Source: Anaerococcus sp. Marseille-Q7828 (GTDB lineage Bacteria; Bacillota; Clostridia; Tissierellales; Peptoniphilaceae). From it: DNA of 64,000 nucleotides. Location: assembly GCF_949769285.1 (NCBI RefSeq), contig NZ_OX458331.1, forward strand, positions 1,736,001 to 1,800,000. The letters run 5' to 3'. The stretch's first letter is position 1. Each line of letters opens with the position of its first letter. Under the pieces are notes generated by a model. The model made no database searches and was not told the DNA's origin. It saw only the letters and a list, made by a program, of their open reading frames with translations. Made by a program: the position numbers and the translations under genes. Shown piece by piece: positions 30,107 through 63,460 of this stretch.

Positions 30107-33100
30107 TTATTTTCCAGCAAGTCTTTTGTATGTCTCGTATCTTTCTTTAGCAGCTTTTTCTGCTTCAGCATACAATTCATCAGCGCTTTCTGGGAATGAT
30201 CTCTTAAGTGATGAGTATCTTACTTCACCTTGAATAAATTCTTGGAAGGACTCAGATGGTTCTTTAGAATCTAATTGGAATGGATTCTTACCTTCGTCAG
30301 CTAGACGTGGGTCGAATCTCCATAAGTGCCAGTAACCAGCTTCTACAGCTTGTTTTTCTCTGTATTGTGATTTGCCCATACCCATTCTGATACCGTGGTT
30401 GATACATGGAGCATAGCAAATGATTAGAGATGGTCCATCATAGCTTTCAGCTTCTTTGATAGCCTTTAATGTTTGGTTTTGGTTAGCACCCATAGCAACT
30501 TGAGCTACATAGATATAACCATAAGTTGTCATCATTAGACCAAGGTCTTTTTTACGTACTTTCTTACCAGAAGCGGCAAATTGTGCTACTGCTGATAATG
30601 GTGTTGATTTAGATGATTGTCCACCTGTATTTGAGTAAACTTCTGTATCAAATACTAGGATGTTGATGTTTTCACCACTTGCTAATACGTGGTCAACTCC
30701 ACCAAATCCGATATCGTAGCTCCATCCGTCACCACCAAAGATCCACATAGATTTTTTAATCATGTAGTCTTTTAGGTTTAGAATCTTATTAACTAGGTCA
30801 GATGCTTCTTCACCTTCAACTTTTTCATCTTGAAGTGTTAATATCTTAGCTGTTGCTTCTTTAGATTTTGCAACATCATCTTTTCCTTCAACCCACATCT
30901 TGAATGCTTCGTTAAATGGAGATTCAATACCTAGGTCTAGGAATTTGTTCATGTAGCTTTCTAGTAGGTGAGCATTTGATTCTGCTGCAAGTTTCATACC
31001 ATAACCGTATTCAGCTGCATCTTCAAATAGTGAGTTACCCCAAGCTGGACCCTTACCTGTTTCAAGGTTTTTGGTGTAAGACATAGCTGGTGCACTTGCT
31101 CCCCAGATTGATGAACATCCTGTAGCATTTGCAATGTACATTCTATCACCAAATAGTTGAGTAACTAGTTTAGCATATGGTGTTTCACCACAACCTGCAC
31201 ATGCGCCAGAGAATTCTAGTAATGGTTGTTTGAATTGGCTACCTTTAAGTGTCATATCATCCATTACATCTTCTTTATATCCAACTTCTTCGTGAGCGTA
31301 TGTCCAGTTGTCTTTTTGGTTTTCTACTTGTTCTTCGAATGGTTTCATTAGAAGAGCTTTTTGTGGAGCTGGACAGATATCAGCACAGTTACCACAACCT
31401 GTACAGTCTAGTGGAGATACTTGAATTCTAAATTCATATTCATCCATGCCCTTACCAATAGCTTTCTTTGTTTCAAAGCCTTCTGGTGCATTTGCTTTTT
31501 CGTCAGCTGTTACTAAGAATGGTCTGATTACAGCGTGTGGACAAACAAATGAACATTGGTTACATTGGATACAGTTATCTATTTGCCATTCTGGTACATT
31601 TAGAGCTATACCACGTTTTTCGTGTGCTGTTGTACCTGATGGGAATTCACCATTTTCAAGGTCTAGGTCTGTAAATGCAGAAACTGGGATTTGATCTTCT
31701 TTTTGTTCAATCATTGGTCTTAAAATGTTTTTAACAAATTCAGACATTTCTACTTCTTCTTTTTCAGGATCTACTGCATTTGCCCAGCTTTCTGGAACTT
31801 CTACTTTGTGAGCTGCATTTAGTCCTGCATCAACAGCTGCATAGTTCATGTTAACTATGTCATCACCCTTGTGACCATAAGATTTAACTATAGAGTCTTT
31901 TAGGTATCCAACTGCTTCTTCAATTGGAAGAACTTTTGATAGGTTGAAGAATGCTGATTGCATGATCATGTTTGTTCTTGAACCTAGTCCAATTTCTTGA
32001 GCAATGTGGCTTGCGTCGATGATGTAGAAATCAATGTTGTGTTCTACAATATATTTTTTGATTGATGCTGGTAAGTGTTGGTCAAGTTCTTCTTCACTCC
32101 ATACGCAGTTAAGTAGGAATGTACCACCATCTTTAAGTCCAGCTAAAAGATCATATTGGTGAACATATGCTTGTTTTGAACAAGAAATGAAATCAGCTTC
32201 ATCAAGTAGGTATGTTGATCTGATTGGATCTTTACCAAATCTTAAGTGAGATACTGTTAGACCACCTGATTTTTTAGAGTCATAGTCAAAGTATCCTTGT
32301 GCATACATTGGTGTGTTATCGCCGATGATTTTGATAGCTTGTTTGTTAGCACCAACAGTACCGTCTGAACCGAATCCCCAGAATTTACATCTTGTTGTTC
32401 CTTCTTGACGTACTTTGAAATCATCTCTTTCTAGAGATGTGTTTGTAACATCATCTGTGATTGCCAATGTGAAATGATCTTTAGTATTTTCGCTTCTTAG
32501 GTTATCAAATACTGCTTTAACATCAGCAGGAATTGTATCTTTACCAGCAAGACCATAAACACCACCATAAACTTCTGGAGCGTCTTCCACACCGTAGAAT
32601 ACTGATTTAACATCTAGGTATAGTGGTTGGCCTTCTGCACCTTTTTCTTTTGTTCTATCAAGAACAGCGATTTTCTTAACTGTATTTGGAATAGCTTTTA
32701 GTAAGTGTTCTTTTGAGAATGGTCTGTATAGGTGAACTTCTACTAAACCTACTTTGTATCCGTCTTCTAGTAATACATCGATTGTTTCTCTAGCTGCTTG
32801 GTTGAATGAACCCATTGCTACGATTACTTGTTCTGCATCATCAGCACCATAGTAGTTGAATAGTCCATAGTTTGTTCCAAGTAAGTCGTTTACTTGATTC
32901 ATGTATTCTTCTACAATGCCAATAATTTCTTCGTATGCATGGTTAGAAGCAACTGTTCTTTGGAAGAATGTATTCTTTTCAGCTGTACCCATGTGTTTTG
33001 GTCTTTCTGGGTTAAGTGAATTGTTTTTGAATGCATCAACAGCATCAAAGTCTACAAATTCTTTTAATGTATCGTAGTCCCAAACTTCGATTTTTGATAC

Positions 33101-33643
33101 TTCATGGCTTGTTCTAAATCCATCAAAGAAGTTAATAAATGGTAATCTACCTTTGATAGCAGCTGCATGAGCTACTGGAGATAAGTCCATTACTTCTTGA
33201 ACAGAGTTTGAGCAAAGCATTGCACAGCCTGTTTGTCTAGCTGCCATAACGTCAGAGTGGTCACCATATATAGAAAGAGCGTGTGTTGCTATAGTTCTAG
33301 CTGCAACGTGGAATACACCTGGTAATCTTTCTCCAGCAATTTTGTACATATTTGGGATCATTAGTAATAATCCTTGGCTGGCTGTATATGTAGTAGTTAG
33401 TGCTCCAGCTGCAAGTGAACCGTGTACTGCTGCAGCAGCGCCTGCTTCAGATTGCATCTCTTTTACGATTACTTCTCTATCGAAAACATTCTTACGGCCA
33501 TTAGCAGACCATACGTCTACTGATTCTGGCATTGGTGAAGATGGAGTGATTGGGTAAATTGTTGCAACATCAGTAAATGCATATGATACGTGAGCTGCAG
33601 CGGTGTTACCATCCATAGTCTTCATCGCTCTATTAATTGTCAT
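30107..33643 (-). CDS. nifJ: Pyruvate:ferredoxin (flavodoxin) oxidoreductase
   Basis: Oxidises pyruvate to acetyl-CoA and CO2, reducing ferredoxin: the main pyruvate outlet of anaerobes. One chain of 1178 residues holding all PFOR domains: pyruvate-binding domain I (GNTAAAHVSYAFTDVATIYPITPSSPMPE), domain II-III, two ferredoxin-type 4Fe-4S sites (C691/694/697/701 and C747/750/753/757), and the thiamin diphosphate domain (ACAGCGETPY, ATGCSSIWG, and GGDGWSYDIGFGG). AGGAGG precedes the ATG and the gene has a near-consensus promoter, fitting high expression. It needs three Fe-S clusters, which matters for the iron control suggested at ldh. Confidence 0.97.
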   Translation of the reverse strand: MTINRAMKTMDGNTAAAHVSYAFTDVATIYPITPSSPMPESVDVWSANGRKNVFDREVIVKEMQSEAGAAAAVHGSLAAGALTTTYTASQGLLLMIPNMYKIAGERLPGVFHVAARTIATHALSIYGDHSDVMAARQTGCAMLCSNSVQEVMDLSPVAHAAAIKGRLPFINFFDGFRTSHEVSKIEVWDYDTLKEFVDFDAVDAFKNNSLNPERPKHMGTAEKNTFFQRTVASNHAYEEIIGIVEEYMNQVNDLLGTNYGLFNYYGADDAEQVIVAMGSFNQAARETIDVLLEDGYKVGLVEVHLYRPFSKEHLLKAIPNTVKKIAVLDRTKEKGAEGQPLYLDVKSVFYGVEDAPEVYGGVYGLAGKDTIPADVKAVFDNLRSENTKDHFTLAITDDVTNTSLERDDFKVRQEGTTRCKFWGFGSDGTVGANKQAIKIIGDNTPMYAQGYFDYDSKKSGGLTVSHLRFGKDPIRSTYLLDEADFISCSKQAYVHQYDLLAGLKDGGTFLLNCVWSEEELDQHLPASIKKYIVEHNIDFYIIDASHIAQEIGLGSRTNMIMQSAFFNLSKVLPIEEAVGYLKDSIVKSYGHKGDDIVNMNYAAVDAGLNAAHKVEVPESWANAVDPEKEEVEMSEFVKNILRPMIEQKEDQIPVSAFTDLDLENGEFPSGTTAHEKRGIALNVPEWQIDNCIQCNQCSFVCPHAVIRPFLVTADEKANAPEGFETKKAIGKGMDEYEFRIQVSPLDCTGCGNCADICPAPQKALLMKPFEEQVENQKDNWTYAHEEVGYKEDVMDDMTLKGSQFKQPLLEFSGACAGCGETPYAKLVTQLFGDRMYIANATGCSSIWGASAPAMSYTKNLETGKGPAWGNSLFEDAAEYGYGMKLAAESNAHLLESYMNKFLDLGIESPFNEAFKMWVEGKDDVAKSKEATAKILTLQDEKVEGEEASDLVNKILNLKDYMIKKSMWIFGGDGWSYDIGFGGVDHVLASGENINILVFDTEVYSNTGGQSSKSTPLSAVAQFAASGKKVRKKDLGLMMTTYGYIYVAQVAMGANQNQTLKAIKEAESYDGPSLIICYAPCINHGIRMGMGKSQYREKQAVEAGYWHLWRFDPRLADEGKNPFQLDSKEPSESFQEFIQGEVRYSSLKRSFPESADELYAEAEKAAKERYETYKRLAGK

Positions 33644-51190: not shown

Positions 51191-54100
51191 TTATTCATCT
51201 TCTTTTTTCTTTTTACTAGCAAATAATCCAGCACTTGCTGCTGCTAATATTGATGCTACACTGAATGCACCACTTACACCTGTTTTCACGTTCGTGTTAG
51301 ACGTTTTGTTGCCATCTTTTGAACTTGAATCCTTTTGAGTTTTTTGATTATTCAAAGTTTTTGTTTCTACTTTTATATTATTATCAGATTTATTACCCGG
51401 ATTATTAACTATATTGTTGCCACCATTATAGTTTGGTTTCTCTGGATCTTTTGGATTCTCTGTTTCTGGTGTATTTGGCTTACCTGGTTTATTTGGTTTT
51501 TCTTCACCTGGCTTGCTTGGTTCTTCCGGTTTTTCCTCGCCTGGCTTACCTGGTTCGTTTGGTTTTTCTTCACCTGGTTTACCTGGTTCATTTGGCTTTT
51601 CTTCGCCTGGTTTACCTGGTTCATTTGGTTTTTCTTCGCCTGGTTTACCTGGTTCATTTGGTTTTTCTTCGCCTGGTTTACCTGGTTCATTTGGTTTGTC
51701 TTCACCTGGTTTACCTGGTTCGTTTGGTTTGTCTTCACCTGGCTTGCTTGGTTCTTCTGGTTTTTCTTCACCTGGTTTTCCTGGCTTTTCAGGATCTTTG
51801 TCACCTGGTTTACCTGGTTCTTCTGGATCCTTATCGCCTGGTTTGTCTGGGTTTTCTGAATCCTTGTCTCCTGGTTTGTCTGGGTTTTCTGGATCCTTAT
51901 CGCCTGGTTTATCTGGGTTTTCTGGATCCTTATCGCCTGGTTTATCTGGGTTTTCTGGATCCTTATCGCCTGGTTTGTCTGGATTTTCTGGATCTACTGG
52001 TGGGATTTCACAGACATTTTTAGTTCCGATTTCTATAATCTTATCTTGTTTTTCTGTGATTGTTTTAGTAGTCCTATCAACTTCTTTGCTGTTTTCAATC
52101 TTAACAGTAGTTTCAGTTTTTCCTACAATACCTTCTTGGATAACATTAGTCTTTCCAGCTTCAAGGTTTGGATTTTCTCTGATGATGATATCAAAAGCTT
52201 GTTCGCTTTCATATGTGAATTCGCCTTCAGTCTTAGAACCATACTCTACAACCTTATTCTTTGGTTCAGTTCTTTCTTCTTTGACTTCAAGTTTACCTGT
52301 TTCCTTGTTGAAAGTAGTTGTATATTTTACAGAACCCTTAGAACCTTCTTCGATAACTTTTGTTTCGCCTTCTTTAAGTTCTGGATTGTGTCTATACTCA
52401 GTGTCGTGACCTAATTCAACAGTCTTCTCAACAGGTTTAACACCAATTCTTACTACCCTATCTTCTTTTTCGGTTATAGTTTTAGTAGTTTCTGTTGGGT
52501 CTCCTACTGGCTTAGAGTCCTTAATCTTTTGAGTAATTGTAACTTTTTCCTTACCTGGCTTACCTTCTTTTTCAATTACTTGGCTACCAGCATCAAGATT
52601 TTCATCATAGATTACCTTTGTTTCATAAGGGATTTCTCTTTCGATAGTCTTTGTAGTTTCACCTTCAGTAGAGTCAGTAGGTTTTGTACCTACACGAACT
52701 ATGTGTTTCTTAGGCTCTAGAGTTACTTCTTCGCTAATTTTCTTAGCTTCACCATCTGGCTTGCCATTTTTAATGTTTTGTTCATATTTTGTAGTCTTAG
52801 AACCTGGTATTCCTTTTTGTTCTACTTCACTTTTACCTTTTTCTAAGGTGTCATCCTCGATAATTTCTACTTCAAATGGAATTGGGCAAGTCTTGCTGTA
52901 TTCGTATTTACCTGTGAAGTCTTTTGTACCTACAATAACTTTTTGCTTAGCCTTCGTTACCACTTGTTCTGTAGTTTGTTCTATCTTACCTGTTTCTGGG
53001 TTGTATTTATCAACTACCTTAGTTTCTACTTTACCTGGTGTTAACTCGCCAGTTTCTACTACTCCTTTGTCTTTTGTATCATCGTATACATATTCGATTT
53101 CAACTTCCACATCTTTAGAATAGTTGTTTTCTGGAGTTTCTACCTTTGTTCCTACTTCGATAATGTGCTTCTTAGCTTCTACCCTATTGGATTCAACTTT
53201 GAGCAAGTCACCATCTGGTGCACCATTTTTAATCTTTTGGTTAAATTCTATATCATAGGAACCTTGGACACCTTTTTGAATTTCTTTGCTAGTTCCAGCT
53301 GGAAGTTCACTGTTATATCTAACTTCAACTTCAAATGGAATTTCAAAGTGTTCAGTGTGTTTTACTTCACCTGTAAAGTCCTCGTCACCTACAAGGATAA
53401 CTGCCTTTTTAGGCTCTTTAACTGTTTTGTATTCTGATGTTTCTGTTATTTGAGAATTTTCAATAGTTAGAGTTCTTTCTCTTAGGCCGCTTTCTCCAGT
53501 TTGTGGCACTCCACCAACTTCGTTGTACTTCCATTCACCCTTTTTAAGTGATGGGTCTTTTCTAACTTCAACTTCAAATGGAATTGTTTCTGTTTCCTTG
53601 TATTGGCCATTAGTTTTAGAGCCTATTCTTAACTTTCTAGTAACTGGATCTTTTGTTACTTTAGTTTCTCCACGGTTTTCTTCGCCTGCTTCACCATTTG
53701 TAATTGTTCTTGTAATCTTAGTTTCTTGTTCACCAAGCTCACCCTTTTGGTCTTCTACGATTTGGTTTGGAGCTAGGCTTGGATCAACTATGATTTCAGT
53801 TTCAAATGGAACTGGGTCTTTGTCCACATATTCAACTGTGCCAGTAAAGTCTTTATCACCTACTTCGATAATTTCTTTAACTGGTGTTTTTATTATTGAT
53901 GGTTCAGAAGTATTTGTCACCTTAGAGTCTACTATAGTAAGTGTATATTTTTCTTCTCCAGCAACACCTTCTTGAACAACTTTATACTCACCCTTTTTAA
54001 GGTTTGGATTTACTCTAACTTCTACATCATATGGAATTTTGTTGGTATATTCATGTGTTCCATTAGATTTTGCAGCACCTACTTTTACAATTCTCTTAGA

Positions 54101-57100
54101 TGGAGCCTTAGTTTGTACTGGGTCTCCTTCTTTTGAGTCTGTAACTTCTCCATTTTTAATTGTGTGAGTTACTGTTGTTTCTTCCTCTCCAAGTTCACCT
54201 TTTTGGATAACTTCTGTTGTACCTGGTTCTAAAGAATTATCTACAATATATTCTATTTCAAATTCAATAGGGCTTGTCTTCTTAGTTTCGAAAGTTCCTG
54301 TAAAGTCTTTTTTACCAACTTTAATTACTGCGTTTACTGGTTTTGTTTCTACAACTTTTGGTTCTCCAACGACTTTAGAGTTTACAATTGTCCAAGTTGT
54401 AATTCTTTCTCCTACTTTACCTGGAGTTACTTCTCTATATTCTCCTGCTTTTAATTCAGGATCATATTCAACGGTGTACTCAAAAGGAATTTCTTCCTTA
54501 TGTTGATGAGTTCCGTCGGTCATAGAGCCCACTCTAACCACCCTATCTTCCGCTGGTGTTTCAGATATAAGTTTTTCTTCAGTTGATTTCTGTTCACCAT
54601 TTTCAAAGTGTTGAATAAATTCCTTTGTACGCTCTCCTACCTTACCTGGTTTATCTACCTTCATAGTGCCAGCTGGGAGAGTATCATCAAATATCACTTC
54701 AGTTTTAAAAGGAATTACTTCCTTAATTTCGTTCTTGAATTCACCAGTGTATTTGTTGGTACCGACTATGATTTCTTGAACAGGAGGTGTAACGACTGTT
54801 TCTTCAACAGATTCTATCTTTCCAGTTTCAGGGTTGTATTTGTTAGTTACAACTGTCTTGACTTTACCTGGAGTGAACTCACCTGTTCTAGCTTCTGTAA
54901 CATCTAAGTTAGGATCAAAGGTATATTTAATAGTAACATTTACATCACTTTCTACTCCAACAGAGTTTTGGGCAGGTTTAGTACCTACTTTGATTACATG
55001 TTCAACAGGTTCAGTCTTTGAAGTTTCTTCTGATTTTAGTTCGCCATCAGCTTCGCCATTTTTAATAGCTTGAGTATATTTAGTTGTTTTTGAGCCTGGT
55101 ACACCTTGAGTTACTAATTCACTCTTACCAGCTTCTAGAGTTTCATCTTCAATAACTCTTACAGTAAATGGAATTTTTTCTGTTACTTCGTGTGAAAATT
55201 CGCCTGTAAAGTCTTTTCGTCCCACTCTAATCACAGCATCAACTGGATTAGTTGTTTCTACACTTGGCTCTCCAACTATTTCAGAGTTTTTGATAGTCCA
55301 AGTAGTTTTCTTTGTTCCTTCTTTTCCTTCTACATCTATTACATATTCACCAGATTTTAGTTCTGGATCATAAGAGATGTTGTATTTGAATGGAATCTTT
55401 TCTTCGTAGGTGTGGGTACCTTCAGTATTTCTACCTACTTTGATGATTCTATTTACAGGTGCTTTTGTTTGAGTATATTCGCCTTCTTCAGTTTTAGTTA
55501 CTTGGCCATCTTCTATAGTAAGGGTATTTGTTCTAGTTTTTTCGCCAAGTTGTCCTTCTTGAGTTACTTTTTGTTCACCTGGTTTTAGGCTGTCATCAAA
55601 TTCTATAATAGTTTCAAATGGTACTTCAACTTTTTCTGTTACTTCGTGAGTACCGCTATTTGTTCCCTTACCAACATTGATTATTGCATCTTCTGCTGGG
55701 ACTTCTGTTACAGTAGGTTCGCCATCAACTTTAGAGTTTACAATCTTCCATGTTGTAGTTTTAGTTCCAACCTTACCTTGTTTTACAATTTCGTATTCAC
55801 CTTTTTTAAGGGTGTCGACTTCTCTGACTGTATATCCAAATGGTAATTCTTCAACGTGTTTAAACTCATCTACAAAGTCTTTGCTACCAACTTCGATAAC
55901 AGCATCTTCTGGATCAATTGTATCTTCTTTGGTATCTACAATCTTTGAGTCCCTTATAGTATAGGTGGTTTTTTTGCTTCCAGCCTTACCTTTAAGCTCA
56001 ACACCGTTAACTTTTTTGTATCTCCACTCGCCCTTTGCTAGGTCCTCTACAACTTCGACTTTTGTTTCAAATGGAATTTCTTGCTCATGAACAATGGTAT
56101 TTTTTGTACCTGAAGCTATAAATTGTACTTCTGTTACCCTTGTGCCTTTTTCTGTAGCTCCATCATAATAATGAGCAGTTACAGGTACGTTTAATAAAGC
56201 TCCGTCAATATTTTCCCCATCTGGAACAGTTGCTGTCACTTTACCTGTGTTTTCATCTATTGAAACTTGCCAAATATTGCCTTTATCATCTGTGTAGGCA
56301 TTGGTATTAAGGGTAAATTTAGTTGGTCTTCTGTTAAAAGTATCTTCATCGTTTAGAATAACATCAGAAGAAAGCACATCTCCTGCCTTACCTGCTTTTG
56401 CATTGTAGCGAGGAGTCATATTGGCTCTTTCTTTAATGATAAATTCAGCAAATGTTTCGTCGGTGATGTCCTCATCTGGTTGTTTTGGATCATTATAATG
56501 GGCAACTACTGGGACAAAAAGCTTTTCTCCACCATTAAAGTTACCGTCTTCTTTTGGCTTGGCAGTTACTTGGCCAGTTTTTTCATCAATAGAAACAGTC
56601 CATTCATTGCCGTGGTCGTCCTTATAATCAAAACCATCTTTTATAGAGTAACTTGAAGGGCTTAGCTTCTTTTCATCTTCAGAAATCACTGGTAGTGAGG
56701 TCTGTTCTTCTGATGGGAAATTTACTTTAGCCTCATACTCTGGTTTGTTTAATGTTGATTCCTGAACAACAAAGTGGAACCAGCGTGTATCTGTTGAGCC
56801 ATTTGTATAGGTATATTCAACAGGTAGGGCTATGGTATCTCCAGCTTTGGCATTTTTTGGCGCAGTTATGTCAAAATATGATATATTGTCAGACTTACCA
56901 TCAATAACCCATCTCTTGTCCTTGTTTTCTTCCTTCATCAATTCATCGTAAGATATTCCTAATTCTCTTGCGATTTTTTTATTTGCTGCTATAAGGTATT
57001 CTTCCTTAAGTTTTCCTGTGGCTTCTCCTGCTTTATATGCAGCATCCATTTCTGCACCAGTTTTTTGAGTTCCACCAGGTGTACTTGGATCTAAAATTTT

Positions 57101-58705
57101 TATAGTAGCTTTTTTCCCAGGACCTACACTTGTAGAATCGTTTGGATCAATTTTATTTCCTTTTTCATCTTTGAATTCTTGATCATAGTATCTAGTGTCG
57201 TCAAGGTTTAGGCTAAAGTCACCAATAAGATTGTAATGGTCGTAGCGGTCGATGCCTTGCTTGTCTATTGTAACATTAGTTCCCTTATGGTTGATGGTAG
57301 CAGATCCTGCACCTGTTTCTGTGTAAGTTCCTGTTTCACCAAAATCATCTGGTGTGTTGGCTATATTGATAAATTCTTCTGCTGTTCTTGGGCGGGCAAA
57401 AAATTTGACATCTAGGTGTGTTAATCCCTTATAATCTGGATCTTTAGCAAAGATAGAATCTTCATTTACTACATACTTGCCACCCTCTAATTTTAGAGCG
57501 CCTGCTGGCATCTTTACATGTACCTTGCCCTTATCGTCAATATAGGCACTAGCCTTTGGCACAACTTTGCCAGTTACTGGATGGTAAACTTGGCCAACTA
57601 ATCTTTCTTTAGCGCTTTCATCTATATTTTCTACCTTAATACCAGTGTCAATATCTTGACCTTTGACGAAGACTTTTTCATTGTATTCGCCATTGAGTTT
57701 CATTAGCTTAAGTCTGTCATTTTCATTTGGCCATGGATTTACCTTGTAAGCTAAAGCGAAGTTATTTCCAAAAAACTTAACACCTGGGTTTTCTTTAGTG
57801 TAGTTATCCTTCATACCAAAGGAAGTATAAAGATTGTCCTTATTATTAATATGCTTAAGGGTATCTTCGCTAGCTACATAGTTTAAATTTATTTGTCGTC
57901 CACTAGCAGTTACTTCTCCATTTTCACCCGGTTTAAATGTTACCTTAGGGGATTCAGAAGTTAATCCTTCTCCCACACCCATCATAGGCTTTTCACCTAT
58001 TTGTGCTGGTATAAGACCAGAATCTGTAACAGAAATACTAGTATAGGTCCTTTGACCAGTCTTCTTGTCTATGGTAATTTGGTAACCATATTGGGTTAAA
58101 CTAGGCGATTGTGAACCTGGGTTATTAAGTTGGAATTTAAAACCGTCTTTTTCTACCTTCGCATCAGTTTTAACGAAATTTTGGTTTGTATCTCCAGGTT
58201 GAAGATCTGTTGTCCTATAACGTTCACTGCCGTTATAGTCTTTGATTTTCTTTTCATCATTGCTATAGTTTGTCTCAGTTGAAGCTGATGCCTGCTGCCT
58301 AGATGGAGCATTAGCCTCAGACATTTCAAGGGCCGGACTCACTTCTTCGGTCGTATTTGTGCTGTAAGTTTGAGCTCTTACTGGTTGTTCTTTGCTTTTT
58401 CTTTTTGTACTTTGAGCATTTGTGGTGCTTTCACTTACATTGGTCGTTTCTACATCATTAACACTAGCTTCAGAAGATCTAGTATTGTTAGTTTCAGTAT
58501 TGCTTGCACTATCATTGCTTATAACGATAGTTTCATCGTATACACCGTCTAGTTCGTCTGCAATATATGACGGAACACTATCAGCATATACTTCATTAGT
58601 ATTCCCCATAAGGCCAAATCCACCAGCAATAATAGTAGCACCCAAAAGTGCCTTTTTGATGGTTTCATTGGACAAAGGAATTATAGATTTTTTATTATTA
58701 ATCAC
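51191..58705 (-). CDS. Giant cell-wall-anchored G5-domain surface protein (Aap/SasG-like layout)
   Basis: 2504 residues. Signal peptide 1 to about 41 (hydrophobic 18-32, cut after VYA), then a Ser/Thr/Asn-rich linker to about 150 and an N-terminal region (about 150-655) that I cannot assign to a known fold. Two YPDG/Rib-like modules follow (about 655-868, each with VSIDE-x-TG-x-V-T-A and VPV-x-AHY). Residues about 869-2231 hold some 18 tandem G5-like modules of 70-85 residues (IPFE...GE...G-x-x-G...VGT). A Pro-rich stalk of 11-residue repeats (2238-2413), a linker, the sorting-type motif NVKTG (2472-2476), a hydrophobic helix and KKKKEDE complete it. The start is GTG with AGGAG six bases ahead. 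Layout suggests an adhesin or biofilm accumulation protein; function is inference. Confidence 0.9.
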   Translation of the reverse strand: MINNKKSIIPLSNETIKKALLGATIIAGGFGLMGNTNEVYADSVPSYIADELDGVYDETIVISNDSASNTETNNTRSSEASVNDVETTNVSESTTNAQSTKRKSKEQPVRAQTYSTNTTEEVSPALEMSEANAPSRQQASASTETNYSNDEKKIKDYNGSERYRTTDLQPGDTNQNFVKTDAKVEKDGFKFQLNNPGSQSPSLTQYGYQITIDKKTGQRTYTSISVTDSGLIPAQIGEKPMMGVGEGLTSESPKVTFKPGENGEVTASGRQINLNYVASEDTLKHINNKDNLYTSFGMKDNYTKENPGVKFFGNNFALAYKVNPWPNENDRLKLMKLNGEYNEKVFVKGQDIDTGIKVENIDESAKERLVGQVYHPVTGKVVPKASAYIDDKGKVHVKMPAGALKLEGGKYVVNEDSIFAKDPDYKGLTHLDVKFFARPRTAEEFINIANTPDDFGETGTYTETGAGSATINHKGTNVTIDKQGIDRYDHYNLIGDFSLNLDDTRYYDQEFKDEKGNKIDPNDSTSVGPGKKATIKILDPSTPGGTQKTGAEMDAAYKAGEATGKLKEEYLIAANKKIARELGISYDELMKEENKDKRWVIDGKSDNISYFDITAPKNAKAGDTIALPVEYTYTNGSTDTRWFHFVVQESTLNKPEYEAKVNFPSEEQTSLPVISEDEKKLSPSSYSIKDGFDYKDDHGNEWTVSIDEKTGQVTAKPKEDGNFNGGEKLFVPVVAHYNDPKQPDEDITDETFAEFIIKERANMTPRYNAKAGKAGDVLSSDVILNDEDTFNRRPTKFTLNTNAYTDDKGNIWQVSIDENTGKVTATVPDGENIDGALLNVPVTAHYYDGATEKGTRVTEVQFIASGTKNTIVHEQEIPFETKVEVVEDLAKGEWRYKKVNGVELKGKAGSKKTTYTIRDSKIVDTKEDTIDPEDAVIEVGSKDFVDEFKHVEELPFGYTVREVDTLKKGEYEIVKQGKVGTKTTTWKIVNSKVDGEPTVTEVPAEDAIINVGKGTNSGTHEVTEKVEVPFETIIEFDDSLKPGEQKVTQEGQLGEKTRTNTLTIEDGQVTKTEEGEYTQTKAPVNRIIKVGRNTEGTHTYEEKIPFKYNISYDPELKSGEYVIDVEGKEGTKKTTWTIKNSEIVGEPSVETTNPVDAVIRVGRKDFTGEFSHEVTEKIPFTVRVIEDETLEAGKSELVTQGVPGSKTTKYTQAIKNGEADGELKSEETSKTEPVEHVIKVGTKPAQNSVGVESDVNVTIKYTFDPNLDVTEARTGEFTPGKVKTVVTNKYNPETGKIESVEETVVTPPVQEIIVGTNKYTGEFKNEIKEVIPFKTEVIFDDTLPAGTMKVDKPGKVGERTKEFIQHFENGEQKSTEEKLISETPAEDRVVRVGSMTDGTHQHKEEIPFEYTVEYDPELKAGEYREVTPGKVGERITTWTIVNSKVVGEPKVVETKPVNAVIKVGKKDFTGTFETKKTSPIEFEIEYIVDNSLEPGTTEVIQKGELGEEETTVTHTIKNGEVTDSKEGDPVQTKAPSKRIVKVGAAKSNGTHEYTNKIPYDVEVRVNPNLKKGEYKVVQEGVAGEEKYTLTIVDSKVTNTSEPSIIKTPVKEIIEVGDKDFTGTVEYVDKDPVPFETEIIVDPSLAPNQIVEDQKGELGEQETKITRTITNGEAGEENRGETKVTKDPVTRKLRIGSKTNGQYKETETIPFEVEVRKDPSLKKGEWKYNEVGGVPQTGESGLRERTLTIENSQITETSEYKTVKEPKKAVILVGDEDFTGEVKHTEHFEIPFEVEVRYNSELPAGTSKEIQKGVQGSYDIEFNQKIKNGAPDGDLLKVESNRVEAKKHIIEVGTKVETPENNYSKDVEVEIEYVYDDTKDKGVVETGELTPGKVETKVVDKYNPETGKIEQTTEQVVTKAKQKVIVGTKDFTGKYEYSKTCPIPFEVEIIEDDTLEKGKSEVEQKGIPGSKTTKYEQNIKNGKPDGEAKKISEEVTLEPKKHIVRVGTKPTDSTEGETTKTIEREIPYETKVIYDENLDAGSQVIEKEGKPGKEKVTITQKIKDSKPVGDPTETTKTITEKEDRVVRIGVKPVEKTVELGHDTEYRHNPELKEGETKVIEEGSKGSVKYTTTFNKETGKLEVKEERTEPKNKVVEYGSKTEGEFTYESEQAFDIIIRENPNLEAGKTNVIQEGIVGKTETTVKIENSKEVDRTTKTITEKQDKIIEIGTKNVCEIPPVDPENPDKPGDKDPENPDKPGDKDPENPDKPGDKDPENPDKPGDKDSENPDKPGDKDPEEPGKPGDKDPEKPGKPGEEKPEEPSKPGEDKPNEPGKPGEDKPNEPGKPGEEKPNEPGKPGEEKPNEPGKPGEEKPNEPGKPGEEKPNEPGKPGEEKPEEPSKPGEEKPNKPGKPNTPETENPKDPEKPNYNGGNNIVNNPGNKSDNNIKVETKTLNNQKTQKDSSSKDGNKTSNTNVKTGVSGAFSVASILAAASAGLFASKKKKEDE
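51467..51994 (-). repeat. 33-base tandem repeats encoding the Pro-rich stalk
   Basis: About 16 in-frame units of 33 bases, coding 11-residue repeats. Two subtypes: DPENPDKPGDK at the G5-proximal side (four identical plus variants) and KPNEPGKPGEE towards the wall (six near-identical). Such a stalk spans peptidoglycan in wall proteins. Near-identical DNA units suggest copy number can change by slippage or recombination. Confidence 0.9.
52010..56100 (-). repeat. Array of about 18 G5-like modules
   Basis: Coding repeats of roughly 210-260 bases. Modules fall into types that recur: short ones with DFTGEF/DFTGTF endings, ones with NGEADGELK-like inserts, and two atypical modules with NKYNPETGKIE that lack the usual GxxG (near 54750-54960 and 52900-53110). 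The recurring order suggests past duplication of several modules at once. Counted by eye; the number may shift by one or two. Confidence 0.8.
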
Positions 58706-59603: not shown

Positions 59604-60905
59604 CTAGAATGAAATTTTGAATACTAAGGCCAATATAGTTATGGTAATAGCTATCGGCACATATACATACTTACCTATTTTATACCACTTTTGTCCATAA
59701 TTTCTTTTGGCAGATAAATTTATCTCCGCGAGGAGCTTATCTTTTTGCAAGACATAGAACCAAGTGATAGCTCCAATTGATGCTCCTATAGGTATGATGT
59801 AGATAGAAACTATATCCATATATGGACCAAAGGAATCTATGGTTTCAAGATTGATACCAAGTAGAAATACTAGAAGACCTAGGCTAATAAAAACTGTTTT
59901 TCTAGTAAGTTTTTCAAACCTATGGGTCATTGATTCAGCTATTACTTCAAACATATTTTGCAAAGATGATATGCCTGCAAATACTACAGCTAGATAGAGT
60001 ATGATTGCAAATATTCTCCCAAATCTTATGTTATTTAAAATAGTAGGCAGGCTTACAAATAGCAAGGCTGGGCCAGCCAGCTTATCCATAGCAAATACAC
60101 TTACTGCAGGAATCATAACACATGATGATATCAGACCAGCCATAGTATCTAAAAATCCAGTTTGAACTGACGATTCTACTATGTCTTCATCCTTGTCTAT
60201 ATATGCACCAACTACAATCATGCCAGATCCTGTTATAGATAGGGAGAAAAACGCTTGGCCCATGGCATTTACAATAGTTCTTATGTTCAAATTGTCTGGA
60301 TTGTAGGCGAACATATTTTTATATCCGTCTAGGGCATGTGGTAAAGTCGCTACCTTTATTGCTAGTACTAAAAATAATATAAAGAATGTTGGCATCATTA
60401 TCTTGTTTGTTTTTTCTATGGAAGAAGCTCCACCAAAACAAGTTAAAAGTGTGATTATAATTATTAGAATGTGATAGATTACTACAGAATGTTCTCTGTT
60501 AGCAAAACTTTCAAACCAAATATCTGAAGATTTGAGGAAAATTTCACCCGTTAGGGAGTCAATAAATCCTTTCAATACATATGCAACTATTATGCTATAG
60601 CCTACAGCTATTAAAAATGTCCCTATGAGAGGAATATAGCCTATAAATCTTCCAATATTTTTATTTTTAGATTTAAAAGCATGGTCATAGGCGCCTAAGG
60701 TACCTGTCTTTGCCATCCTACCGACTGCGAACTCAGATGATAGGCCTACATAGGAAAATATTCCAGCAAATAATATATAAAATAATAAAAATACTAGGCC
60801 TCCCTCTTGGAATTTATATGGGAAACCCCATATATTTGCCATTCCTACAGCAGAACCTACTGCTGATAAGATGAGACCTAGTCTTGATGAAAATTTCTTG
60901 TTCAT
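59604..60905 (-). CDS. Sodium-dependent amino acid transporter (NSS/SNF family), copy 1
   Basis: 433 residues and about 11 membrane helices, the short bacterial NSS form (like Tyt1/MhsT). The hallmark first helix AVGSAVGMANIWGFPYKF, with the unwound Gly-Met-Ala-Asn ion and substrate site, is at 16-33; AFFSLSITGSGMIVVGAY (helix 6 region) and GISSLQNMFEVI follow. Substrate, probably a hydrophobic or aromatic amino acid, is not known. It is a clear paralogue of the next gene, arranged in tandem, with its own promoter. Confidence 0.92.
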   Translation of the reverse strand: MNKKFSSRLGLILSAVGSAVGMANIWGFPYKFQEGGLVFLLFYILFAGIFSYVGLSSEFAVGRMAKTGTLGAYDHAFKSKNKNIGRFIGYIPLIGTFLIAVGYSIIVAYVLKGFIDSLTGEIFLKSSDIWFESFANREHSVVIYHILIIIITLLTCFGGASSIEKTNKIMMPTFFILFLVLAIKVATLPHALDGYKNMFAYNPDNLNIRTIVNAMGQAFFSLSITGSGMIVVGAYIDKDEDIVESSVQTGFLDTMAGLISSCVMIPAVSVFAMDKLAGPALLFVSLPTILNNIRFGRIFAIILYLAVVFAGISSLQNMFEVIAESMTHRFEKLTRKTVFISLGLLVFLLGINLETIDSFGPYMDIVSIYIIPIGASIGAITWFYVLQKDKLLAEINLSAKRNYGQKWYKIGKYVYVPIAITITILALVFKISF

Positions 60906-60910
60906 AATTT

Positions 60911-60969
60911 ATTCCTTTAAAGCAACAGTGTTTATAAAGGAATTATATCACAAATATTAATTTATTCAA
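60911..60969 (-). promoter_or_regulatory. NSS copy 1 promoter with inverted repeat
   Basis: On the minus strand TTGAAT (60964-60969), 16 bases, extended -10 TGA-TATAAT (60942-60947). A perfect inverted repeat ATTCCTTTA-N15-TAAAGGAAT (60911-60919, 60935-60943) reaches from the -10 to the AAAGGA ribosome site. It may be an operator; most of the left arm on the mRNA side would lie ahead of the transcript start. Confidence 0.6.
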
Positions 60970-62277
60970 TTAAAAAGATATTTTAAATATCAAAGCTATC
61001 AAAGTCAAAACTACCGCTATTGGCACATATACATACTTGCCTATCTTGTACCATCTATCACCATAAGTTTTCTTAGATGATTTGTTTATTTCTGCTAATA
61101 GCTTGTCCTTTTTTAGTATATAAAACCAAGTTATAGAACCAATAGAAGCTCCAATTGACATTATATAAATAGACACTATATCCATGTAATGGCCCACCTT
61201 GTCTATAGTTTCCATATTTAAACTTATGGCTATTGTGACAAGTCCTATAATTAACAAGGCAAGATTTCGGCTAAGTTTGTCAAATCTGCCGGTTAAAGAA
61301 GCTACAACTGGTTCAAACATATTTTGCAAGGATGATATACCTGCAAATATTACTGCCAAATATAAAATGATGGAAAATATGCGTCCAAAGAATATGTTTT
61401 GTAGTATTGTTGGTAAGGATATAAATAATAATCCCGGTCCACCCACTTGTTGCATATTAAACACGGATAAGGCTGGTATCATGACACAAGAGGCTATCAA
61501 AGCTGCCAATGAATCATAGATGCCAGTTTGCTTGGATGAATTCATAAGATCTACACTATCGTCTGTATATGAGCCTACAGTCACCATAGCAGCTCCTGTT
61601 AAGGATAGGGAGAAAAATGCCTGACCCATGGCTGCTATGATGGTGTCTAGATTTAATTTACTAGGATCAAATCTAAACATATATTTGTAGCCTTCTATGG
61701 AGCCATCTAAGAATAGTATCCTGATTACTAATATCAAAAACAAAACAAAAAAAGTCGGCATCATTATTTTGTTGGATTTTTCTATGGTTTTTGCCCCACC
61801 TATGCAGGTTAGGATAGTGAGTATGATTATTACTATGTGGTAGGCGACTACCCCATAATTCTCACTAGAAAAGCTATTAAACCAATCTTCTGCTGGCATA
61901 GTAAAAAGCTGGCCACTTAAAGAATCAATGAATGCTTTTGATACATAGGCTACTATAACTGAATAGCCAATAGCTATGAGAAATAGTGCAAATAGTGGTA
62001 TGTAGCCAAAAATTCGTGCAATTTTTTTGCCTTTGCCAGCCGATTCAAAGGCAATCTCATATGAACCAAGAGATCCCTTTGGACTCATCCTACCTGCAGC
62101 AAATTCACTGGATAGGCCCACGTAGGAAAAAAGTATTACAAAGGCTAGGTAAAATAGCAAGAAGACTAGGCCTCCTTCTTGAAACTTGTAAGGAAAGCCC
62201 CAAATATTCGCCATTCCTACGGCTGAACCTACTGCTGTTAATATAAATCCTATTTTTGAAGAAAATTTCTTTTCCAT
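60970..62277 (-). CDS. Sodium-dependent amino acid transporter (NSS/SNF family), copy 2
   Basis: 435 residues, about 11 membrane helices. The first helix AVGSAVGMANIWGFPYKF is identical to copy 1, and most helices are close, but loops and the region around 90-140 differ, so the two likely have different substrates or regulation. AGAGG before the ATG and an extended -10 (TGA-TATACT, minus strand, near 62310) lie upstream. The promoter of copy 1 starts right after this stop codon. Confidence 0.92.
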   Translation of the reverse strand: MEKKFSSKIGFILTAVGSAVGMANIWGFPYKFQEGGLVFLLFYLAFVILFSYVGLSSEFAAGRMSPKGSLGSYEIAFESAGKGKKIARIFGYIPLFALFLIAIGYSVIVAYVSKAFIDSLSGQLFTMPAEDWFNSFSSENYGVVAYHIVIIILTILTCIGGAKTIEKSNKIMMPTFFVLFLILVIRILFLDGSIEGYKYMFRFDPSKLNLDTIIAAMGQAFFSLSLTGAAMVTVGSYTDDSVDLMNSSKQTGIYDSLAALIASCVMIPALSVFNMQQVGGPGLLFISLPTILQNIFFGRIFSIILYLAVIFAGISSLQNMFEPVVASLTGRFDKLSRNLALLIIGLVTIAISLNMETIDKVGHYMDIVSIYIMSIGASIGSITWFYILKKDKLLAEINKSSKKTYGDRWYKIGKYVYVPIAVVLTLIALIFKISF

Positions 62278-62372: not shown

Positions 62373-63311
62373 TTATATCTGACTTTTGTCAATAATATCT
62401 TTCAATGTTTTGGCAGATTTGTCCATGTTTTCCTTTTCTATGTCGGTTAATGGGACTTCTATTACCCATTTTGCTCCATCTTTGCCAATGATAGTTGGAA
62501 CTCCTAGGTAGATATCATCTAGGCCATATTCGCCTTTTAGGTATGATGATGTCGAATAAACAGAATTTTCATCGTCTATTATGGCTCTTACTAGGGCTGT
62601 CAGTGCCATGCCTATACCATAGAAAGTTGCTCCCTTTTTCTTTATAATCTCATAGGCTGCATTCTTTGACTTTTCGAAGGTATCTAGTAGGGCTTTTTCG
62701 TCAAGTTCGCTTTGGTTTCTGACCCATTCGTATATTGGCAATCCACCTATGTTAGTATGTGACCATACTGGAAATTCTGTATCTCCATGCTCACCCATGA
62801 TGAATGCTTCCACACTTCTTGGATCTATACCGATAAGCCCCGCTATTTCCTTTTTGAACCTAGATGAATCTAGGGTTGTACCAGTTCCTATGACCTTGGA
62901 TGCAGGAAATCCTGAATATTTCCATGTAGCATAAGTTAGTATGTCAACTGGGTTACTTGCTATTAAAAATATGCCATCAAAGCCACTGTCAACGACTTTT
63001 CCTATCATATCTTTGAAGATGGCAAGGTTTTTGTCTACTAGATCAAGTCTTGTTTCGCCTTCTTTTTGGGCGGCTCCTGCAGTAATTACAACAACTTCTG
63101 CATCCTTGCAGTCGCTATAGTCAGCCTTGTATATATTTTTAGGTTTAGTGAAGCTTATGGCATCTGTTAAATCCATTACTTCGCCTTCTACCTTATCTTC
63201 GTTTATATCAATGATGCCAAGCTCTCTGCCAACTCCAAGTAGTGTAGAAGCATAGGCAAAGGAAGAACCTACAGCACCAGTTCCTATTAGGATTATTTTG
63301 CTATCTTTCAT
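62373..63311 (-). CDS. ldh: L-lactate dehydrogenase
   Basis: Reduces pyruvate to L-lactate with NADH. 312 residues. NAD-binding GTGAVGSSFAY at 10-20; Q82 ahead of G-E-T-R88 marks a lactate rather than malate enzyme; catalytic H175 in MGEHGDTEF, with D148 and R151. AAGGAG lies before the ATG. It competes with PFOR (nifJ, same window) for pyruvate, needs no iron, and has a Fur-like box over its promoter. Confidence 0.96.
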   Translation of the reverse strand: MKDSKIILIGTGAVGSSFAYASTLLGVGRELGIIDINEDKVEGEVMDLTDAISFTKPKNIYKADYSDCKDAEVVVITAGAAQKEGETRLDLVDKNLAIFKDMIGKVVDSGFDGIFLIASNPVDILTYATWKYSGFPASKVIGTGTTLDSSRFKKEIAGLIGIDPRSVEAFIMGEHGDTEFPVWSHTNIGGLPIYEWVRNQSELDEKALLDTFEKSKNAAYEIIKKKGATFYGIGMALTALVRAIIDDENSVYSTSSYLKGEYGLDDIYLGVPTIIGKDGAKWVIEVPLTDIEKENMDKSAKTLKDIIDKSQI

Positions 63312-63350: not shown

Positions 63351-63390
63351 ATTTAACCATATCTGACCTTAGATAACAATTATCACTATC
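63351..63390 (-). promoter_or_regulatory. ldh promoter overlapped by a Fur-like box
   Basis: On the minus strand TTGTTA (-35, 63374-63379), 17 bases, TGG-TTAAAT (extended -10, 63351-63359). The sequence GATAACAATTATCACTATC (63372-63390, plus strand) matches the classic 19-base Fur box (read as its reverse complement) at 16 of 19 positions, and overlaps the -35, where a repressor would block RNA polymerase. Fur as regulator is inferred from the match. Confidence 0.65.
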
Positions 63391-63410
63391 ATTTATAGGA
63401 TTTATAAATT

Positions 63411-63454
63411 AAAAAAGAGCTTTTGCAAATAAATCTAGCAATTTGCAAAAACTC
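63411..63454. terminator. Terminator after trpS
   Basis: 14-bp stem (GAGCTTTTGCAAAT / ATTTGCAAAAACTC, one G-U pair on the minus strand; 63417-63430 and 63441-63454) followed on the minus strand by six T. T-rich on the other side too. Confidence 0.88.
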
Positions 63455-63460
63455 ATTTTT

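Follow-up and report, generated by a model that had tools for sequence, protein, structure and literature searches.

A predicted Fur operator at the lactate dehydrogenase promoter of an Anaerococcus genome

The box at the ldh promoter

Does the L-lactate dehydrogenase gene (ldh) of this Anaerococcus genome carry an operator for the repressor Fur, and would iron shortage then move pyruvate towards lactate, as an earlier note on this DNA had suggested? We have addressed this question in a window of 64 kb, the whole stretch of DNA analysed, which spans positions 1736001-1800000 of a genome assembled as one contig (1,946,085 bases), the nearest named relative by LDH being A. provencensis (98%). 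In the literature collection searched, no paper dealt with a Fur regulon in Anaerococcus. The features at the locus are as follows, in window coordinates.

62373-63311, minus strand: ldh, L-lactate dehydrogenase, 312 aa (TIGR01771 405.9 bits and NF000824 450.8 bits, both over cut-off)
63351-63356, minus strand: possible extended -10, TG-G-TTAAAT, as read from the sequence
63371-63391, minus strand: predicted Fur-type operator of 21 bases, TGATAGTGATAATTGTTATCT in gene direction, with three half-sites, GATAGT-GATAAT-T-GTTATC
63374-63379, minus strand: possible -35, TTGTTA, within the operator, as read from the sequence, the promoter scan being silent
63404-63456, minus strand: hairpin with a T run after trpS, a likely terminator (fold of 63401-63460, -18.2 kcal/mol)

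The product of the gene at 62373-63311 is a true L-LDH, the TIGR01771 cut-off for this call being 303.55 bits. A strong hairpin with a T run separates trpS from ldh, so that ldh is very likely transcribed from its own promoter. Downstream of ldh are two sodium-dependent transporter genes, tandem paralogues, at 59604-62277, and 51191-58705 encodes a giant repetitive surface-type protein of 2504 aa that ends in NVKTG, a hydrophobic stretch and KKKK.

The 19-base Fur-like box described in the earlier note is present at 63372-63390, where GATAACAATTATCACTATC matches the Fur consensus GATAATGATAATCATTATC in 16/19 positions, and it is the sole match with three or fewer mismatches in the window. At the scale of the whole window such a match is only moderately unusual, 0.14 being expected per 64 kb and at least one occurring in 12 of 100 shuffles. 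Judged against the ldh upstream region alone the match is unusual, as none of 1000 dinucleotide shuffles of this region reached 16/19 and 0.6% reached the 12/14 observed for the Gram-positive 7-1-7 form of the box (TGATAATTGTTATCT, 63371-63385). Extending the window-wide expectation to approximately 55 promoters of 100 bp gives an estimate of ∼0.01 chance matches.

The overlap with the ldh -35 that had been claimed is plausible. A candidate core promoter element is covered by the box under either of two promoter readings; the possible -35 itself is absent from the promoter scan. Read by eye, TTGTTA (63379-63374) and the extended -10 (63356-63351) are separated by a spacer of 17 nt; the scan instead lists TTTATA-18-GATAAT, the -10 of which falls inside the box, a type of hit whose frequency is no higher than in shuffles.

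Fur-family proteins and related boxes in the genome

Three Fur-family proteins are encoded in the genome (PF01475 matches). The earlier note had regarded a genome lacking Fur as fatal to its reading; a Fur-like protein, L001, is encoded, for which the best model and the closest crystal structures are Fur and whose gene adjoins an RNase J-like gene. The best model for L003 is PerR and its gene adjoins one for a zinc-binding lipoprotein-like product. On the basis of best model and neighbourhood L001, L002 and L003 are likely, but not certainly, Fur, PerR and Zur, respectively, all three scoring under the NCBIfam equivalog cut-offs.

The genome-wide view consists of pattern searches and fetched stretches with genes called as simple ORFs, which makes the location 'between genes' approximate. 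TGATAATNATTATCA with two or fewer mismatches occurs at 66 sites, compared with 38 for the reversed control, and 26 of the 66 are situated between genes. Approximately half of these sites are thus expected by chance and the list does not amount to a proven regulon; weight is carried by the boxes at feo and flavodoxin because the same boxes recur across the genus. The earlier note had proposed searching for the same box at iron-uptake genes, and it is found at feoA-feoB and an ABC transporter and, in addition, at flavodoxin (genome coordinates, TGATAATNATTATCA-type pattern search).

603325: Fur-type box at an ABC transporter
943401: Fur-type box at feoA-feoB
946379: Fur-type box at flavodoxin

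A further intergenic Fur-type box is located at a gene for a reductase-like protein. The flavodoxin, ABC transporter, reductase-like protein and the ferredoxin described next are named from their sequences alone. A perfect 7-1-7 Fur box (L144:1501-1515, genome 1668838) is present upstream of a gene for a 57-aa 2[4Fe-4S] ferredoxin, with a strong promoter located closer to the gene than the box; a Fur box at this position is unexpected for an iron-sparing regulon. FecCD-type transporters yielded just two weak matches as motif anchors, one of them beside a zinc locus, and were dropped.

The ldh box was also scored with 21-mer and 15-mer models, trained on promoters of feo and flavodoxin from related species and on no sequence from this genome or from any ldh promoter. 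In the 21-mer model the box scores 14.67, a level expected 0.29-0.61 times per 64 kb (P about 0.0005-0.001 per 100 bp), and is outranked in the window by a single site, at 61812 within a transporter gene. In the 15-mer model it scores 10.1, whereas the flavodoxin and feo boxes reach 19-21; 3.6 sites are expected per 64 kb at its score, and other sites in the window outscore it. These scores point to a likely Fur site, weaker than the boxes at feo and flavodoxin.

Conservation in Anaerococcus and competing explanations

A. provencensis (G029) and a second relative, G021, have exactly the same 21-base ldh site. Comparison of G021 with this genome indicates 21/21 identities in the box, 55/59 from box to start codon and 16/57, that is unrelated DNA, upstream of the box, similarity starting at about the box itself. 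The G021 promoter near the box is therefore also well kept, and the box does not stand out by its conservation. Seven species of the A. vaginalis/hydrogenalis clade, in which the gene upstream of ldh differs from that in this genome, have Fur-like sites upstream of a TATAAT at the -35 distance of ldh. With the 15-mer model these have P values of 0.0004-0.025, and with the 21-mer model six of the seven fall below 0.03, G003 being at 0.24. The sites of this second clade, at the same promoter position, are Fur-like but weaker. Neither model detected a convincing ldh Fur site in the nearest outgroups (G012, G013, G015 and G026) or in the tetradius-type clade, most other species compared have no Fur-like site at the ldh promoter, and in G013 and G017 scoring Fur sites occur at other positions. 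The two site-bearing clades form separate groups in the LDH tree, where a change count of 1, which skips unlabelled rows, is compatible with one origin or with two.

Other arrangements are observed at ldh elsewhere in the genus. In the A. lactolyticus/degeneri clade a CRP/FNR-like TGTGA-N6-TCATA occurs ∼70-100 bases upstream of ldh (L129, L130, L132, L133), in the tetradius-type clade a hairpin (ATCCTA...TAGGGT or CTAG...CTAG) lies just before the ldh ribosome site, within the last 40 bases before ldh (L118, L119, L122, L120), and in G002 and G016 flavodoxin adjoins ldh in convergent orientation. We tentatively suggest that ldh control may have been rewired within Anaerococcus, being Fur-type in two clades, CRP/FNR-like in the A. 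lactolyticus group and neither elsewhere, in which case lactate production would respond to different signals in anaerobes that are close relatives.

An unlikely, but the best surviving, alternative is that the ldh box resembles a Fur site by chance, the promoter being AT-rich, its conserved bases belonging to the core promoter only and Fur being uninvolved. In its favour are the equally good matches in the shuffled windows, the modest 15-mer score and retention of the whole ldh promoter in close relatives. Against it are the low probability inside the ldh upstream region, in both the shuffles and the 21-mer model, and the similar sites at the same position in another clade, where the gene preceding ldh is not the same.

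An element common to ldh and crotonase raises the possibility, which we consider improbable, that a diverged Rex or another factor binds a GANAACAATTATCA-type motif in the ldh and crotonase (crt-hbd) promoters. Rex is encoded in the genome and typically targets ldh and crt, and AACAATTATCA recurs at ldh, at crotonase, where it is kept in G029 and G021, and at the A. jeddahensis ldh; however, the AACAATTATCA core also suits Fur, with full Fur symmetry at 1469882. The crotonase element is itself Fur-like, TGAGAACAATTATCA (L183:957-971, genome 1050556) preceding the genes for crotonase and hydroxybutyryl-CoA dehydrogenase. It is kept in G029 and differs by one change in G021, and as a candidate second metabolic Fur site it was not found in a search of more distant relatives. 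Least credible is binding of the ldh box by PerR (peroxide) or Zur (zinc), paralogues of Fur, in place of Fur itself, for although the three Fur-family proteins encoded have overlapping motifs, the PerR-type box of this genome is TTATAATGATTATAA, at a peroxiredoxin (ahpC-like) gene (L169:989-1003, genome 471888), and the ldh box instead carries the G and C that belong to GATA/TATC.

Operators for other regulators were also sought at the ldh promoter. Rex candidates reached 10/14 for TTGTTAANNNNTTAACAA (p 0.37) and 8/12 for TTGTGANNNNNNTCACAA (p 0.39) against shuffles and were rejected, as were TTATAATNATTATAA and TCGTAATNATTACGA, the PerR and Zur operators, which did not beat shuffles (PerR p 0.26, Zur p 0.52). 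Consensuses for CcpA, FNR, CRP, MntR/DtxR, NrdR and CodY matched no better than shuffles, and genome-wide the Rex motif was not enriched (386 sites, control 467).

The ldh box is probably an operator for the Fur repressor. The Fur-like protein, the boxes of this kind at feoA-feoB and flavodoxin, conservation of the ldh box in close relatives and the similar sites of the second clade uphold the Fur part of the earlier reading.

Iron, pyruvate and comparison with known systems

If the box is a Fur operator, sufficient iron would let Fe(II)-Fur occupy the three half-sites at the ldh promoter and keep ldh low; when iron is short Fur would be released and ldh would rise along with feoA-feoB and flavodoxin. 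Derepression of ldh in low iron seems fairly likely, if less so than the Fur operator itself. The enzyme competing for pyruvate is encoded in the same window.

30107-33643, minus strand: pyruvate:ferredoxin (flavodoxin) oxidoreductase (PFOR) (TIGR02176 1841.8 bits)

The proposed switch from PFOR to lactate is only half there, as a predicted Fur box is present at ldh but no Fur site is found upstream of PFOR, where the best scores are 3.45 and 2.28. Even so, pyruvate could be drawn off by derepressed ldh alone, and a shortage of clusters could lower PFOR activity; a shift of flux from PFOR to lactate caused by ldh derepression is possible, though we regard it with some doubt. Should this scheme be correct, these anaerobes would produce more lactate under iron scarcity and the genus would offer a natural comparison between species with and without the ldh site.

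A link between low iron and lactate has already been reported in other Firmicutes, namely C. acetobutylicum, Roseburia and S. aureus. In C. pasteurianum lactate increases in low iron with LDH not among the changed proteins (PMC5395762), indicating that flux can shift without ldh regulation. In Staphylococcus aureus, which differs in being a facultative anaerobe, lactate is raised by iron starvation or by loss of fur (PMC1557832). The phenomenon proposed here has been described for Roseburia intestinalis, in which low iron increases ldh 1.8-fold, decreases pfo to 0.6-fold and raises lactate, although in the sections of that paper drawn upon here the ldh change is not ascribed to a Fur site (PMC4659462). 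A similar box is present at the ldh -35 of C. guangxiense (L081). In Clostridium acetobutylicum ldh, feo and flavodoxin are reported to be under Fur-mediated iron control, with ldh increased in low iron (Vasileva et al. 2012, as cited in PMC6311696 and PMC4659462). As represented in those citing papers, the evidence there comes from a transcriptome and a fur mutant, whereas that for Anaerococcus comes from sequence alone; the likeness is that ldh, feo and flavodoxin also have Fur-type boxes here.
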